Below are positions 49,237-60,649 of a stretch of 64,000 nt of DNA, piece by piece. The notes under the pieces are model-generated. The model was not told the origin of the DNA. It searched no databases and worked only from the letters and a program-made list of their open reading frames with translations. The position numbers were made by a program, and so were the translations under genes. Each line of letters begins with the position of its first letter. Position 1 is the stretch's first letter. The DNA is taken from NCBI GenBank assembly GCA_017535785.1, contig JAFXTN010000027.1, forward strand, positions 51,426-115,425, written 5' to 3'. The stretch is from Butyrivibrio sp. (GTDB taxonomy: Bacteria; Bacillota; Clostridia; Lachnospirales; Lachnospiraceae).

Positions 49237-49662
49237 TCAATCAGAATATTTAGCTGCCGCCTTAAGTCTGGTGAGAGCTCTTGCAAGTCCCGCCTGAGAC
49301 TTCCTAAACTCTTTTATAGACTGCTTATGCTGAAGATGTTCCATTGCAAACTCATAAGCTTCCCTTGCTCTTTGCTTATCGATATCCTCAGGTCTTTCGA
49401 CGGTATTCACAAGAACTATACACCTATTGTTAGCTACTTGTACTGACCCAAGACTGACAACACCGTAAAGCCACTCTCCGCCGGGCTGTTTTATCTTGAT
49501 AACTCCATCGGAAAGCGCGAGGATCATCTCCTCGTGATTGGCCAAAAGCGCAAGCTCACCGTCAGCGCAGGGAAGAATGATCTCCTCAGCTCTGTCATCA
49601 TAAAATATTCCGTTTACAGATATGACCCTCAGTCCGAAGGTCGGGGCTTTTTCACCGTTCAT
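49237..49662 (-). CDS. atpC: ATP synthase F1 epsilon subunit
   Basis: The 141-residue protein has the N-terminal beta-sandwich (LRVISVNGIFYDDRAEEIILPCADGELALLANHE) and the C-terminal helical hairpin (RAREAYEFAMEHLQHKQSIKEF). It is part of the central rotor and can inhibit ATP hydrolysis. It begins 3 bases after the atpD stop. The motif normally reading PG in the first strand (PGxxGxxxxLPxH) is here CADGELALLANHE. Confidence 0.93.
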   Translation of the reverse strand: MNGEKAPTFGLRVISVNGIFYDDRAEEIILPCADGELALLANHEEMILALSDGVIKIKQPGGEWLYGVVSLGSVQVANNRCIVLVNTVERPEDIDKQRAREAYEFAMEHLQHKQSIKEFRKSQAGLARALTRLKAAAKYSD

Positions 49663-49665
49663 ATA

Positions 49666-51075
<1,410 letters not shown>

Positions 51076-51098: not shown

Positions 51099-52031
51099 TT
51101 ATGACTGTTTCTTTTTCTCTTTTGCCATTTTTACTTCTTTGGCATGTTTAAGAGCCTTGGCTCCGCTGACAACCTCTGTTATCTCCTGGGTTATCATCGC
51201 CTGTCTCTGCCTGTTGTATGTCCTTTGAAGCTCATTTATCATCTTCTCGGCATTCTTATTGGCAGAATCCATGGCCATCATACGGGCACTCTGCACACTG
51301 CAAAACGCTTCTACAAGAGCACCGTATATAAATCCCGTGATATAATTGGGGACAATATTGTCCAAAACCGCTGAAGGACTGGGTTCCATGAGGAATTCCT
51401 CGAGAAGAGTTCCCGCAGGTATCTTCTCCTGTCTGATATCGGTGATGAGATCAAGCGGAAGAAGCTTTTCAAATCTTGTCTCGGTCTTATTCCCGTGAAC
51501 AGTTGTATATATTATGTAAAACTCATCAATCTTTCTTGTATAGTAATACTCAAGTATCTCTGCTGCGATCTTCCTCGCCCTGTGAAGTGTAGGATTCTGA
51601 GATGTAAAGATAAAAGATTCTTCAATCTTCATATCTTTAGACGCAAAATGAAATCTTCCCACCTCACCGATAACAAAGAGCTTCCATTTATCACCGTCGT
51701 TTCTGATATGCTCTTCGGCAAGCTTTAAAACATTGTGGTTATAAGCTCCCGCAAGGCCCTTATCATCAGTAAAGACGATGTAACCGCGCCTTCTCTCTTC
51801 TTCCGGGATATCAAGCCTTGTCTCCAAAAAGATATTTTCAACTCCTTCGGGGAGATGACGGACTATTCTGGAGATCATAGCCTGTGTGGAAAAGAAAAAC
51901 GGCTCGGTATCGGTAAGCATCTTCCTTGCTCTTCTAAGCTTGGTGGAAGATATGAGATACATCGCATTTGTAATTTTTCTGGTATCGTTAACGCTTTCTA
52001 TACGATCCCTTATTTCTTTAATAGTTGCCAC
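51099..52031 (-). CDS. atpG: ATP synthase F1 gamma subunit
   Basis: The 310-residue rotor subunit has the N-terminal helix ([20 protein letters not shown]) and the C-terminal helix (ASAR-like segment [36 protein letters not shown]). It is about 20 residues longer than many gamma subunits, with a lysine-rich C-terminal tail. The start is GTG at 52031, overlapping atpA by 14 bases. Confidence 0.96.
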
Positions 52032-53805
52032 TTGCTATCTCTTCCTTAAGCTTTTTGTTCTCAGCATCGTTAAATGCATCTACGGCATCAAGGATTCTCT
52101 TTTTCAAATTATCCGAAAGATCCTTACTGGTCCTAAGATCGTCGCAGATCTCGCCCTGCTCCGTATTAAAGTATGTAAGAAGTCTTTCCTTATATTCTCT
52201 GACGCTCTTAACCGGAACAATATCAAGCTTTCCTGAACCAACCGCAACAAGTATGATAACCTGCTCATGCATTGCAAGCGGATGCTCCAACGGCTGCTTA
52301 AGAAGTTCCATAAGAACATTGCCATGATCAAGCTGCTTCTTGGTCGTCTCGTCAAGATCTGAACTAAACTGTGTGAATACAGCCATCTCTCTGTACTGTG
52401 CAAGATCCACCCTGATACTGCCCGCAGCCTTCTTCATAGCCTTGGTCTGGGCTGCAGATCCTACACGGGATACCGAAAGTCCGACGTTAACTGCAGGTCT
52501 CATTCCTTCGAAGAAAAGATCACTCTCTAGGAATATCTGTCCGTCGGTAATGGAAATGACATTGGTCGGAATATATGAAGATACATCTCCGGCCTGTGTC
52601 TCTATAATAGGAAGGGCCGTTATGGATCCTCCTCCGAGCTCTGAAGAGAGCTTACTTGATCTCTCCAAAAGTCTTGAATGCAGATAGAAAACATCTCCGG
52701 GATAAGCCTCACGTCCGGGTGATCTCTCAAGAAGCAGCGAAAGTGCTCTGTACGCAACCGCATGCTTGGAAAGATCGTCGTATATGATAAGTACATCCTT
52801 GCCCTGATACATGAAATACTCGGCAAGTGCAGTTCCCGAATAAGGTGCGATATACTGAAGAGGCGCCATATCAGAAGCTGTGGAGCTTACTACAATAGAA
52901 TAATCCATAGCTCCGGTCTTCTTAAGCGTCTGTACGATCTTAGCTACAGTAGATGCCTTCTGACCTATAGCTACATAGATACAGATAACATCCTTACCCT
53001 TCTGGTTGATGATCGTATCAAGAGCGATCGAGGTCTTACCGGTCTGTCTGTCACCGATAATAAGCTCTCTCTGTCCTCTTCCTATAGGAAACATTGTATC
53101 AATAGAAAGAATACCGGTTTCCATAGGCTCGCAAACAGACTGTCTCTCAACAATTCCGGGTGCGGGTTCTTCAACCGCCCTGTATCCGGATTCCTTTATA
53201 TCACCCTGTCCGTCGATAGGCGCTCCGAGCGCGTCGATAACTCTTCCTATAAAAGCTTCTCCGACAGGTATTCCGGCCTCTTTATAAGTTCTTACAGCTC
53301 TGGTTCCCTGTCTTATAGAAGTATCATTACCAAAAAGGATACATCCGATATGGTCATCTCTGATATCCTGAGCCATACCCTTGGTACCGCCTTCAAACTC
53401 TATGATCTCGCCATAGAAAGCGTGCTCGATACCATCGATATTGGCAATACCGTCGCCCACCCAGGTAACGGTTCCGACCTCTCTATCCTCAATGGCAAGG
53501 TCGAATCCCTCAACCTTATTACTGAGCATAGAGATTATCTTACCGGTCTCTCTGTCCCCGGTCTTGCGACTGATCTTATTAAGTTCAGCACGAAGCTGTC
53601 TGGCTCTTCCCGCATCGGACCAATCGTATTCATAGTTCATGCATGATACGATGAATCCTCCGCCTATTGAAGGGTCACTTATAAGCTCAACATCTATTTC
53701 CGTCACATCAAACTTCTTGCAGAGAACAGCCTTGATCTTATCAAGCTGCTCGCTGCTCGGAGCTGTTTCGGCATAGCGGAGCTTTGCTTTTAAAACATCA
53801 CTCAT
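52018..53805 (-). CDS. atpA: ATP synthase alpha subunit fused to a delta-subunit C-terminal domain
   Basis: The product has 595 residues, about 90 more than a normal alpha subunit. Residues about 92-595 are a full alpha subunit: the start of the N-terminal helix ([13 protein letters not shown]), [12 protein letters not shown], the P-loop GDRQTGKTS at 251-258, and the [17 protein letters not shown] motif. Residues about 5-75 resemble the C-terminal domain of the delta/OSCP subunit: [21 protein letters not shown], then [10 protein letters not shown], then [13 protein letters not shown], matching the order of delta proteins (lsxxQ...l, DpsliGG, D.S...kL..l). No separate atpH gene lies between atpF and atpA, its normal place. 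The start ATG at 53805 has GGAG at 7 bases and overlaps atpF by 8 bases. The N-terminal half of delta, which normally binds alpha, is absent. The fusion is seen in the sequence; the delta identity is by pattern reading and I am fairly sure. Confidence 0.9.
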
Positions 53806-54289
53806 TATTTACTCCGGCTTCAACGATAAATTTGTCATAAAGTTTCATGTCGTCTTCGCTGCTATGCTTGGTCGCTGCAATCTTGGAAGCGGCATCAATT
53901 ACCATATCGGTAAGCTGAGCTGCATAAACCTCTTTGGCACGCTCATTCTCAACCTCGGCATTATGTCTAGCTTCCATAATGATCTGCTCGCCCTTTTTCT
54001 TGGCATCGCTGACGATGCGCTCATACTCAACATAACCTTGCTTCTTGATGTCAGAAATAATTGTCTCCTTCTGCGCATCAATTTCAGCAATCTTGTTCTC
54101 ATATTCTACTTGGGTCGTTAGAGCCTTATGAGCAGCTTCATCGGCGGATCTTGTAGCATCATCCACTTCTTCCATTCTCTTGGCGATAACTGCGTCAACT
54201 CTTCCAAACAGAAATTTTTTGGCGACAAAAAACAAAAGTAAAAGATTAAAAATTGTACACCCAATACTCAAAATACTTATATTTAACAC
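53798..54289 (-). CDS. atpF: ATP synthase F0 b subunit
   Basis: The 163-residue peripheral stalk subunit has one N-terminal membrane segment ([16 protein letters not shown]) and a long charged helix to the C-terminus, expected to form a coiled coil. It is of normal length for b, so no delta domain is fused here, unlike the b-delta fusion of mycobacteria. The start is GTG with GAGGG upstream; the ATG two bases earlier is out of frame and hits a stop at once. Confidence 0.93.
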
Positions 54290-54322: not shown

Positions 54323-54541
54323 TCATGAGAAAAGAATGATCATAATAGCTACAACGAAACCATAAATAGCTGTAGCCTCGGCAAGTGCACAACCAAGAAG
54401 AAGAAGTTTCATGATCTTTCCGTCTGCTTCGGGCTGTCTTGCAACCGCATCAGTAGCCTTAGCTGTAGCAAGGCCGATACCGATTCCTGCTCCGATTCCT
54501 GTGAATGCAGCGATAGCCGCACCGATTGCTGTTAAATTCAT
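54323..54541 (-). CDS. atpE: ATP synthase F0 c subunit (proton type)
   Basis: The 72-residue hairpin has two membrane helices joined by the RQPEADGK loop, with the ion-binding Glu55 in helix 2 (CALAEATAIYGF). The Na-specific signature is not complete: the helix-1 Gln of Ilyobacter-type c subunits is Ile22, and the Ser after the Glu is Ala56. By known families this points to proton rather than sodium coupling. Confidence 0.96.
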   Translation of the reverse strand: MNLTAIGAAIAAFTGIGAGIGIGLATAKATDAVARQPEADGKIMKLLLLGCALAEATAIYGFVVAIMIILFS

Positions 54542-54569: not shown

Positions 54570-55253
54570 TTATTCGACAGCTTCTTTTATATATAATGAT
54601 GTCAAAAATACAAATACATATGCCTGTATTGCTCCATCAAATATATCAAAATAAACACTTAAGAGTGCCGGGAATATAACGGGTGCCACGTGCTTGATAA
54701 GCTCCATGATAACGGTCGCTCCCAAGATATTACCGAAAAGTCGCATGCAAAGAGACAACGGTCTGATCGCAAGCTCTAAAACATTCATGGGGGCTATTAC
54801 CGGCATAGGCTCGGCAAAACCCTTAAACCATTTTCCCAATCCTTTCTTACGAAGTCCGGCTGCTTCAACGAGTATAATACTCATCAAAGAAAGAGCAACT
54901 GTCACGGTAAGGTCCATGGTCGGAGGCGTAAACCCAAACAATCCGATCATATTTGATGCTGCTATAAAAATCAGAACAACAGCCAAATAATCCTGATATC
55001 TGATTGCTTCCTCTCCGAGCATGCCACCTGTCACGCCTCTTATCCAGAGGACGAAACTCTCAACAGCTGCTTGCCTTTTGGAAATATTATGAACTTTAAA
55101 ATCGCGGGTAAGAAATAAGATCAGAAGAAAAAGGACTCCCAAAATTATCCATGTGACGACAACAGACTTATAAAGATCAAATAAACCATTGCCGTAAGGA
55201 ATATGAATAAAAGCTTTATCTTCCTTAAGAAGTTCATTAAGTAGCTCTTTCAT
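54570..55253 (-). CDS. atpB: ATP synthase F0 a subunit
   Basis: The 227-residue membrane subunit provides the ion half-channels. It shows the essential Arg in ELAIRPLSLCMRLFGNILGATVI and several membrane helices. I use the ATG at 55253 because GAGGAGA lies just upstream; a longer frame would run through the promoter at 55285-55313. It is the first gene of the operon; no atpI lies upstream. Confidence 0.95.
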   Translation of the reverse strand: MKELLNELLKEDKAFIHIPYGNGLFDLYKSVVVTWIILGVLFLLILFLTRDFKVHNISKRQAAVESFVLWIRGVTGGMLGEEAIRYQDYLAVVLIFIAASNMIGLFGFTPPTMDLTVTVALSLMSIILVEAAGLRKKGLGKWFKGFAEPMPVIAPMNVLELAIRPLSLCMRLFGNILGATVIMELIKHVAPVIFPALLSVYFDIFDGAIQAYVFVFLTSLYIKEAVE

Positions 55254-55284
55254 GCCGTATCTCCTCTTTCCAAAACTATCTTCT

Positions 55285-55313
55285 ATTATAGAAAAGATGC
55301 GGTAATTGTGCAA
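55285..55313 (-). promoter_or_regulatory. sigma-A-type promoter of the ATP synthase operon
   Basis: On the minus strand TTGCAC (55308-55313), a 17-base spacer and a perfect TATAAT (55285-55290) lie about 32 bases before atpB. It sits immediately downstream of the FapA terminator. Confidence 0.8.
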
Positions 55314-58099: not shown

Positions 58100-58834
58100 A
58101 TGAAAAAAAGTATAGTAGTTATCTTGATAGCTACCATGATCGCATTTGGGGTTGTCGGTTGTGGAAAAGCTGTCGCGATCGAACCTGCTGCTTTAAATAC
58201 ATCAACAGGATTTTCCTTAAAGTCAGCAGATGACACAGTACTCGGCAAAAAAGAAACGTCAACAAGTTCGGCAAGCGAAACTTCCTCTTCTAACGGCGAA
58301 TTTACATCGGGAGAGATTAAAGACAACGTTTATGAAAACACTTTCTTTAATGTTAAATTCCCCGTAGCAGATGACATGGTATTCGCAGATAGTGTTAAAC
58401 TGGCAGAGCTAAATAACACAGTTATCGACACACTTGATAACAAGGGAGCCAAAGAAACAGTTAAAAACGGCAATCCAATGGTTGTAGCTTATGCGGAGAA
58501 CGCTCGTGCTACAAGCTTCAATGTAGCAATCACTTCTGCCGGCAAGCTTGCAACAGCAGTTTTTAATGAAAAGAAAGTGCTGGAAGCAAACAGAGAAACT
58601 GTAGTAAAAGAATTTGAGGGAATGGGACTCTCTGATGTAACTACCTCTGTAGAAAAGACAACATTTCTTGGGGAAGAACATGATTCTTTAATTGTCAGAG
58701 GAAAGATTCAGGGACAGAACTTCTCACAAAAGATGATCATTCTTATTAAAGACGGATATATGGCTGCATTCACGATAAGCGGTCTATCCGAAGATAGCTT
58801 CTCTCTCTTCGACGGAGCTACAAAAATAGAGTGA
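58100..58834 (+). CDS. array lipoprotein P1
   Basis: The 244-residue protein has a lipoprotein signal (MKKSIVVILIATMIAFGVVGCG, lipobox Cys22 within VVGC), then a Ser/Thr-rich linker (to about residue 70) and the array domain. That domain has EIKDNVYENTFFNVKFPV, TTFLGEEHDSLIVRGKI, LIKDGYMAAFTISG and ends GATKIE. No known family is recognised. The overall plan (a short strand-rich N-terminus with FFN, then a C-terminal stretch ending in a terminal strand) recalls PsbP/Mog1-like folds, but this is a guess. It is the first gene of the array and divergent from the FapA-like gene. AGAGGAATCGAAGT precedes the ATG. Confidence 0.8.
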   Translation: MKKSIVVILIATMIAFGVVGCGKAVAIEPAALNTSTGFSLKSADDTVLGKKETSTSSASETSSSNGEFTSGEIKDNVYENTFFNVKFPVADDMVFADSVKLAELNNTVIDTLDNKGAKETVKNGNPMVVAYAENARATSFNVAITSAGKLATAVFNEKKVLEANRETVVKEFEGMGLSDVTTSVEKTTFLGEEHDSLIVRGKIQGQNFSQKMIILIKDGYMAAFTISGLSEDSFSLFDGATKIE

Positions 58835-58886
58835 ATCAAATTGGGGAACATTTAGTTTTTTTGTTTTTAAAAAAGGGGAAAAAAGT

Positions 58887-59123
58887 ATGAAAAACGAAAA
58901 AGAAAAGAAAAACTGGGGAATCTATGTTGTTGGGACTCTAATATTTATCACCATAAATTTCCTAACTATGACACATTTTAATGAAGCAAAAGCAGAAGAA
59001 CCCGCGCAAGCTGCGCAGGATAAGCTGATCGAGATTCAGCAGGACATCCCTGCGGAAAACGCACTGCTTTCACCCAATGCGGGTTTTTCAAAGCTATTAT
59101 CTGATATAACATTTGAGAAATAA
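58887..59123 (+). CDS. 78-residue single-pass membrane or secreted protein in the array
   Basis: The product starts with a highly charged MKNEKEKKN, a hydrophobic stretch (WGIYVVGTLIFITINFLTM) and a short polar tail with NEAKAEEPAQAAQ. It may be a membrane anchor or have a signal peptidase site after AKA. It shows no similarity to the paralogs around it. A strong AAGGGGAAAAAAGT ribosome site and a 17-base gap to the next gene argue that it is real. No function can be named. Confidence 0.65.
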   Translation: MKNEKEKKNWGIYVVGTLIFITINFLTMTHFNEAKAEEPAQAAQDKLIEIQQDIPAENALLSPNAGFSKLLSDITFEK

Positions 59124-59140
59124 AAGGAGAGAAAATATAA

Positions 59141-59803
59141 ATGAACAGAACAATGAATAAGAAAAATATAATTGCACTATTGATCACAGGATTTATGCTC
59201 TTTGGAGCATGCATGTTTGGTTTTACCGCTGACGTACACGCAGAAGGCAATGTCGATCAGAGATTACTCGGAACAACAGACGGCAAAACTTATGTAAATG
59301 AATATTTTAATATCAGAATTCCTTTGTTTAAGAACATGACTATCGCAGATGACGCAAATCTTGCATTGCAGAATGAAGCAGACGCAAACGGTTATACTGC
59401 TGAGAAAAGACTTGCTGATATAAATGCCGGTATTCCTACATATGTACAGTATTTTTCAACAGATAACAATGATATTTATGTACTTGTCGGAAAGTTTCAA
59501 TCAAAGGAAGAAAAGGATTATTTTAAGAAAAATTATCTAAATGAGGATCTTAGCGAGACTGTTGAAAGTTGGAAAAACGACCCCAATGCTTCAGATTTTA
59601 AAAGCGGGTTCAAAAAGGTTGAATGTCTCGGAAAAACACGCCCCATTGTTTTAGTTAAGGGTAAATATTACGGAAAAGATTATACAGAAGCTCATCTTCT
59701 CTATATCTCAGGCGACTACTATGCTATATATGCAGTAAGCGGTTACGGAACCAATCAGCTTGAGCTTTTCCAGAAGGCTACTCGTGTTAGAAAACAGAAA
59801 TGA
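59141..59803 (+). CDS. array secreted protein P2
   Basis: The 220-residue protein has a signal peptide ending near TADVHA, then the array domain in its most divergent form: TYVNEYFNIRIPLF in place of YENxFFN, ECLGKTRPIVLVKGKYYGKDY in place of the FLGEEH block, and SGDYYAIYAVSGYG in place of KDGY. It ends KATRVRKQK. The early FGAC is a poor lipobox, so it is probably released rather than lipidated. GGAG lies 11 bases before the first ATG. Confidence 0.75.
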   Translation: MNRTMNKKNIIALLITGFMLFGACMFGFTADVHAEGNVDQRLLGTTDGKTYVNEYFNIRIPLFKNMTIADDANLALQNEADANGYTAEKRLADINAGIPTYVQYFSTDNNDIYVLVGKFQSKEEKDYFKKNYLNEDLSETVESWKNDPNASDFKSGFKKVECLGKTRPIVLVKGKYYGKDYTEAHLLYISGDYYAIYAVSGYGTNQLELFQKATRVRKQK

Positions 59804-59845
59804 TAAATGATCATAATATTAAAAAAGAAAGAGATGGGAAAAAAT

Positions 59846-60649
59846 ATGAATAAAAAAATTATCGCTGCCATCGTTGCAGCCGCTACTGTCCTCTCCGTAA
59901 TGGGTTGTTCGGATGAAGACTTTGAAGAAACAGTTGAGCAGACAGAAACAGTTTCAAGTGAAAATGGTTCAGCAGATATTTCATTTGATGATCCTTCCGG
60001 AGATTTTTCTTTGGAAGATGATCTTGAAGAAAGCGGGGAATCTACTACTGCTTCCGCAGATACAACCGCTGCTCAGACTGCAGACACAAACAGTACAGCA
60101 AACACACAGGCTCCTTCATATATATTAGGTGAAGTGATCAAAGCAGAGGCTGAAAATACAGACAGTGCTTACGAAAATGCTTTTCTTAATCTTAAGATGA
60201 ACGTTCCCAAAACAATATGGTTTGATGGGGATGACTATAAGGCAGACAAAATAAATACTTCAGTTAATGAATTTCCCTCTGCCGCACTCAAACTGATCGA
60301 ATCAGGAAAGCCTGTACTTGCTCAAATCGGTAATCTTGATATGGATACATTTAAGGTCACTATTGTAAAAGGCGGTGATTATTCCAAAGAAAAGTATTTT
60401 GAAGAATCAACTAATATTTACAAGACCACCAACGGAGATACTCCGCCTCAGAATGTATCATCAGAAGTCAGATCGATAACTTTCCTTGGTGAAAAGACTG
60501 ATGTTCTTACAATGAAAGGTACTTTAGTAGATGAAAATTATATTGCTAATTACCTCTACTATTCTAAGGATGGTTATTCTTACATGTTCGAACTTAGTGG
60601 TTTTGGTGATTATATAAATTACTTCGAGGAAGCTACAACATTGAACTAA
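59846..60649 (+). CDS. array lipoprotein P3
   Basis: I use the ATG at 59846 (MNKKIIAAIV), which has GATGGGA upstream, giving 267 residues. A lipoprotein signal ends in VMGC. A long acidic, then Thr/Ala-rich linker (about 25-90) follows; it is the longest in the array. The domain keeps YENAFLNLKM, SITFLGEKTDVLTMKGTL, SKDGYSYMFELSGFG and EATTLN. It was likely exported and tethered to the outer face of the membrane. A longer frame from 59807 would begin just after the P2 stop and place extra residues before the signal sequence. Confidence 0.78.
   Translation: MNKKIIAAIVAAATVLSVMGCSDEDFEETVEQTETVSSENGSADISFDDPSGDFSLEDDLEESGESTTASADTTAAQTADTNSTANTQAPSYILGEVIKAEAENTDSAYENAFLNLKMNVPKTIWFDGDDYKADKINTSVNEFPSAALKLIESGKPVLAQIGNLDMDTFKVTIVKGGDYSKEKYFEESTNIYKTTNGDTPPQNVSSEVRSITFLGEKTDVLTMKGTLVDENYIANYLYYSKDGYSYMFELSGFGDYINYFEEATTLN

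Follow-up and report, generated by a model that had tools for sequence, protein, structure and literature searches.

A natural fusion of the delta C-terminal domain to the alpha subunit of ATP synthase in Butyrivibrio: spread among relatives and a possible route to several peripheral stalks

An F-type ATP synthase operon of Butyrivibrio sp. encodes an alpha subunit that begins with the b-docking C-terminal domain (CTD) of the delta subunit, the N-terminal domain of delta being absent. We lean towards the reading that the product is a working and probably H+-coupled synthase, in which every alpha carries its own b-docking domain and up to three a-b2 stalks are bound. To our knowledge, it is treated as universal that an ATP synthase has a single peripheral stalk and a single a subunit, and the number of ions per ATP is usually given by the number of c subunits divided by three. 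The analysis was performed on a stretch of 64,000 nucleotides (hereafter the window) and on genomes of the same family, class and phylum.

The closest parallel is an engineered enzyme. In the FoF1 of Bacillus PS3, the delta N-terminal domain lies on the three-fold axis of alpha3beta3 and limits the stalks to one, while a designed PS3 delta(105-178)-alpha fusion, described in 2025, bound up to three b2 stalks and a subunits (PMC12229609). The H+/ATP ratio of this deltaDeltaN-alpha FoF1 was 5.8 +/- 0.4 against 3.0 +/- 0.2, and its equilibrium proton motive force at Q = 2.5 was 68 against 133 mV, about half (PMC12229609). The window has the same layout, with the delta CTD on the alpha N-terminus, the N-terminal domain deleted and no separate delta gene in the operon, and the engineered chain (PDB 9jc1) is the best sequence match of the natural fusion among the solved structures. 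By analogy, the natural fusion has the parts that sufficed for multiple stalks in the engineered enzyme. In the proposed mechanism, removal of the delta N-terminal domain from the three-fold axis would lift the single-stalk limit, a short linker would connect the delta CTD on every alpha with the alpha N-terminal helix, and up to three a-b2 stalks could then bind one complex. Additional a subunits would raise H+/ATP, the H+ per turn being the product of the c and the a subunits, and ATP synthesis would be possible at a low proton motive force, with a second, ordinary synthase of the Na+ type alongside.

The features of the operon are collected in Table 1. The PF00213 (OSCP/delta) profile was found to match residues 17-75 of the fusion with profile positions 114-172, which belong to the C-terminal domain, at 24.5 bits against a curated cut-off of 22.3 (E 3e-5), and our own delta profile aligned to residues 4-72; no PF00213 alignment to the fusion begins before profile position 113 or 114. 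TIGR00962 (atpA) matched residues 89-580 at 757.4 bits (curated cut-off 484.45), which identifies an F-type alpha, and the score with TIGR03324, for the alternate F1F0 N-ATPase, fell below its cut-off (602.9 against 750.5 bits). The proposal of the sequence-only reading that a delta CTD precedes a full-length alpha and that the N-terminal domain of delta is missing was thus borne out, and it was also right in that the link is covalent and that as many as three delta CTDs may be present per complex. Residues 1-126 were modelled with AlphaFold2 from an alignment of 12 rows (the window and 11 Butyrivibrio). The confidence is modest (mean pLDDT 62.8, pTM 0.51), with pLDDT values of about 65-78 per block of ten in the delta CTD part (residues 5-82). 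The model contains a strand at 5-11, a helix at 18-32, strands at 37-43, 51-55 and 58-61 and a helix at 64-82, followed past the delta CTD by a further helix at 87-99, which we read in this model as alpha H1, the hydrophobic pattern of which is retained in the CTD-only forms. Measured from the G of GRARQL to the first I of IISML, the linker has 24 residues in the window, nearly equal to the 22 of the engineered 9jc1, and a median of 23 (18-35) in 52 natural fusions.

Table 1. Features of the ATP synthase operon in the window (positions are those of the window)
Feature	Position	Strand	Basis
atpA, delta CTD-alpha fusion, 595 aa, ATG start	52018..53805	-	ORF, PF00213, TIGR00962
delta C-terminal domain, b-docking part, residues 4-75	53581..53796	-	PF00213, own delta profile, AlphaFold2
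linker, about residues 76-85, limits approximate	53551..53580	-	residue count GRARQL to IISML
alpha N-terminal helix H1, about residues 86-101	53503..53550	-	model helix 87-99, hydrophobic pattern
alpha subunit proper	52018..53541	-	TIGR00962 residues 89-580
atpF (b), 163 aa, overlaps fusion by 8 bases	53798..54289	-	PF00430
atpE (c), 72 aa, I-E-A-T-Y at 32, 65, 66, 67, 70, H+-like	54323..54541	-	profile match, motif
atpB (a), listed TTG start may be too early	54570..55313	-	profile matches
atpG (gamma), 310 aa, basic C-terminal tail	51099..52031	-	profile match
atpD (beta)	49666..51060	-	profile matches
atpC (epsilon), both domains	49237..49662	-	profile match

Every subunit of the F-type operon was recognised with Pfam and NCBIfam in the order atpB-atpE-atpF-atpA-atpG-atpD-atpC, and both this order and the 8-base overlap of atpF with the fusion, as read earlier from the letters, agree with the open reading frames and the domain matches. 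Since atpF overlaps the start of the fusion, there is no room there for a delta N-terminal domain, which takes about 255-300 nt, and a hidden or frameshifted N-terminal domain upstream of the CTD was rejected for lack of space. The first set comprises 52 CTD-only loci; in the 51 of them with a separate b gene, no more than 61 nt lie between the b stop and the delta CTD, and in the 52nd, L119, b is part of the fused ORF. For the other 32 CTD-only loci the distance is at most 151 nt (maximum at L183). The b of the window is not fused to delta, as its ORF is separate and PF00430 alone exceeds its cut-off there, and the C-terminus of b (LYD.F) is conserved across the fused operons (69 b sequences). 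The gamma subunit of the window ends in a basic tail of 19 residues (51102-51158, minus strand); the median tail length is 18 in CTD-only loci, 12 in full-length fusions and 9 and 4 in the two separate-delta kinds, 11 loci being left out of these medians. A longer basic gamma tail as a substitute for the lost delta domain was considered and dropped, the difference not being significant after correction for kinship on a tree in which the L119 row begins inside b. Upstream of the operon lies an 854-aa FapA-domain protein (PF03961, PF20250; 55371-57935, minus strand), the first 400 residues of which are repetitive by eye, and at 58100-60649 on the plus strand three ORFs (244, 220 and 280 aa) begin with signal-like sequences and have C-terminal ends similar by eye, while no Pfam match over cut-off was found for any of them.

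A survey of related genomes, proposed with the first reading, revealed a wide distribution of the fusion. Of 397 genomes of the family, 141 gave a match to a profile of the fused N-terminus. In 66 of these, that of the window among them, the match lies in a stop-free open frame of at least 571 aa, and the other 65 family loci were taken for reading. A junction profile identified at least 25 clean fusions outside the family, in at least 14 further families, among 391 genomes of the class (leaving out G475, with a 509-aa frame, and G450, with only the alpha part matched), and at least 14 more outside the class, in at least six families, among 398 genomes of the phylum (leaving out the incomplete G964). 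Loci read outside the family comprise 20 of the class set of 25 and all 14 of the phylum set. In total, 111 fused loci were read, including the window and 11 named ones, of which 84 are CTD-only and 27 carry a full-length delta. Among the long open frames with internal stops, those inspected (L213-L218) were judged to be separate in-frame neighbours, and no frame of this sort was counted as a fusion.

Sixteen relatives with a single weak PF00213 match and a CTD-only fusion were chosen from 299 genomes, 250 of which have a PF00213 match. The fusion is the sole alpha over the TIGR00962 cut-off in all 16, and the sole PF00213 match (E up to 0.01) lies within the fusion in each, over the cut-off in 15 and just under it in G293; since these genomes are 81-100% complete, a gene may have been missed in some. 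On this evidence a CTD-only fusion can serve as the sole F-type alpha. Many of the 16 also have weaker matches, which, judged from their lengths, look like V/A-type, FliI and beta proteins. The PF00213 match extends upstream of the CTD in three of them; in G137 and G062 it runs through stop codons and the DNA there is the b gene (L129 and L088), for which reason these extensions were read as probable chance matches, and in G068 it lies within a single b-delta-alpha frame. This 778-aa frame (L119:5156-7492) joins b, the delta CTD and alpha, no separate b is present in the stretch read, and an assembly error is possible in this one genome.

The c subunits of the fused operons vary at positions 32, 65, 66, 67 and 70. 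Among the 64 nearer CTD-only loci, 37 have I/L-E-A-T-Y (35 + 2) and 27 have T at 66, M-E-T-A-Y occurring in 21 of the 64; in all 27 full-length fusions position 32 is I and position 66 is A or G, and the motif is mixed in the 20 remote CTD-only loci. The fusion is therefore not tied to one ion motif. Several other peculiarities were observed in these operons. The c subunit is of about 106-150 aa in many CTD-only operons (including L118, L122, L125, L126, L132-L138 and L179-L190), compared with the 72-93 aa usual elsewhere. Gamma and beta share one open frame in two loci of two families (L184:6597-8957, 786 aa; L185:6115-8499, 794 aa); such a fusion could not turn freely, because a rotor part would be joined to a stator part. 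At the expected beta start there is an ATG preceded by a purine-rich stretch, so that translation of beta may begin internally. At the start of the L183 fusion (G498), a peptide of about 21 residues recurs almost three times.

The CTD-only and the full-length fusions were intermixed in a first alpha tree of 108 rows, in which the 30 loci L003-L032 are represented by the 17 whose alpha was usable. On a second tree of 136 rows, which drops seven near-identical fused rows and five separate-delta rows (among them both copies of the G265 gene, which is thus missing from it), the three states CTD-only, full-length and separate delta need 19 changes and fused versus separate needs seven; the L119 row begins inside b in both trees. 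Fusions stand at several places on the second tree, namely in a Lachnospiraceae-type group, in families f7, f10 and f52 (97, starred), in a 14-row group of six other families (90, unstarred), at L193 and in the f20 pair, which is sister to a separate-delta form (99, starred). These placements suggest that the fusion probably arose more than once; fission may have occurred instead of repeated fusion. A single CTD-only clade, in which 32 CTD-only rows were held together against 27 full rows on a thinned tree of 66 rows without L119, was rejected (log-likelihood lower by 251, p-AU 0.0009), as it was in an earlier test that included the wrongly cut L119 row (p 7e-7), and six independent CTD/full pairs stand on starred branches of the 66-row tree. 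The trees are quick ones with SH-aLRT support only, and the groups of the clade test were named after the first tree had been seen. As the regain of a homologous domain is unlikely, we read the intermixing as repeated loss of the delta N-terminal domain after the fusion. In the full fusions, the mean identity is 0.47 for the CTD and 0.35 for the N-terminal domain; this lead of the CTD is smaller in the separate type-2 deltas (0.43 and 0.37) and absent in the canonical ones (0.37 and 0.38).

With a full-length fused delta, three N-terminal domains would converge on a single site, and their shedding would be expected after the fusion had made the link covalent. The same shedding agrees equally well with an enzyme of one stalk, in which b2 is held by a single CTD and two CTDs stay idle, the fusion does no more than secure the link between F1 and the stalk, and the N-terminal domain has become dispensable. 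We regard this as a serious alternative, if the less probable of the two: N-terminal loss after fusion needs no additional stalks, at most one N-terminal domain of a full fusion should fit the axis, going by the PS3 arrangement (PMC12229609), and the 27 of 111 fused loci that keep the domain imply that fusion alone need not be a multi-stalk device; but the free CTDs of the engineered enzyme did recruit more stalks (PMC12229609), and the natural sequence shows no evident obstacle to this. Some further points call for caution with the multi-stalk reading. The epsilon CTD is deleted in the engineered three-stalk enzyme, whereas the natural operon keeps both epsilon domains; atpB, atpE and atpF are present in one copy each in the window operon; ion motifs differ among the fused operons; and three-stalk particles of the engineered enzyme were very few on the grid, which its authors blame on loss during preparation, and its pump activity was reduced (PMC12229609). 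The PS3 enzyme is, moreover, a designed one, and its stalk number and H+/ATP are measured values, those of the window enzyme being predictions.

Fusions of this kind are already in print. The sequence-only reading, which was aware only of natural fusions of b to delta in mycobacteria, was out of date in this one respect. In the mycobacterial and Gordonia enzymes a stator stalk part is likewise naturally fused but delta is joined to b (PMC5709465), unlike the window, in which delta is joined to alpha and b is separate. Natural deltaDeltaN-alpha fusions have been named in Acidaminococcus fermentans and under UniProt G4Q3K6 and A0A1I2C5T3, and multi-stalk enzymes were predicted for them (PMC12229609). 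The A. fermentans case, compared by its authors' description, is like the window a natural CTD-only fusion in an atp operon, but from the class Negativicutes (PMC12229609). The Discussion of that paper makes no mention of full-length fusions, repeated loss or Lachnospiraceae, and no report of full-length delta-alpha fusions, Lachnospiraceae cases or repeated loss was found among the open-access papers listed in our searches, subscription papers being mostly outside this scope. The kind of fusion is thus known, and the present survey adds how widely it is spread, that full-length fusions occur and that the domain was, on our reading, lost repeatedly.

In the genome of the window, two alpha genes and no more score above the TIGR00962 cut-off, namely the fusion and a gene on contig C26. 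The latter belongs to a second operon (L139) in the order a-c-b-delta-alpha-gamma-beta, where the contig ends within the beta gene, putting epsilon beyond reach. It resembles the fused operon in the other subunits seen and in their order and differs in having a separate full-length delta (179 aa, 145.7 bits), as expected of an ordinary one-delta F-ATPase, and in its c motif. The earlier statement that atpH is missing is therefore correct for its usual place in the fused operon but not for the genome. That this delta acts in trans on the fused enzyme is very improbable: although it is encoded in the same genome, which formally answers to the separate atpH that the first reading had taken as counting against itself, it sits between its own b and alpha, and PF00213 matches nothing besides the fusion in the 16 chosen relatives. 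The fused CTD and this delta are far apart, a direct BLAST giving only 28% over 29 residues (E 0.015). The two-carboxylate Na+ rotor of the Fusobacterium type has a carboxylate at position 32 besides E65. The c of the window has I at 32 and lacks this motif, and that of the second operon has E at 32 (E-E-T-T-Y). Set against the known Na+ rotor, these motifs suggest that the fused operon is probably H+-coupled and that the second looks Na+-coupled. An rnfC and a 365-aa PF00346 protein, perhaps an Ech hydrogenase, are also present, and together with the two c motifs they fit the pair of one H+ and one Na+ ATP synthase published for butyrivibrios (Schoelmerich et al. 2020, as cited in PMC11026938). 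By alpha, a Butyrivibrio MAG stands closest to the window among the named relatives, with 97% over 480 alpha columns.

The extension is present in 11 named Butyrivibrio loci with 73-89% identity over all 99 query residues. The dN/dS ratio is about 0.10 for codons 1-84 (48 of 66 pairs passing the filter 0.05 < dS < 3) against 0.024 for codons 127-500 of the fusion, figures that are rough because dS is near or above 1. By this measure the extension is under purifying selection, and it is probably made as protein. It had been conceived earlier that alpha might be translated only from an internal start near residue 93; residue 93 is indeed Met, but the start is unsupported. That Met93 serves as an additional start, giving a mixture of one fused and two plain alphas, is hardly credible either. 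The window and its 11 Butyrivibrio relatives all have Met93, but the position is Met in only five of 30 CTD-only rows from other genera (I in 11, L in nine, V and K in two each and N in one), and the Shine-Dalgarno energy in 12 of 12 is weaker at Met93 (-1.5 to -3.9 kcal/mol) than at codon 1 (-5.6 to -6.1 kcal/mol).

The natural series of separate delta, full delta-alpha and CTD-alpha offers a way into the role of the delta N-terminal domain, and the CTD-only form occurs in named Butyrivibrio strains. A wider proposal, to which we give a little under an even chance, is that many Clostridia-type anaerobes run multi-stalk synthases with two or three a subunits, in which H+/ATP far exceeds c/3 and which arose by repeated fusion and subsequent N-terminal loss, and that in Butyrivibrio a low-gear H+ enzyme of this sort shares the membrane with an ordinary Na+ enzyme. 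If true, a natural enzyme with several stalks would be at odds with the c/3 rule for the ions per ATP, and it could explain how rumen anaerobes synthesise ATP on a weak gradient.
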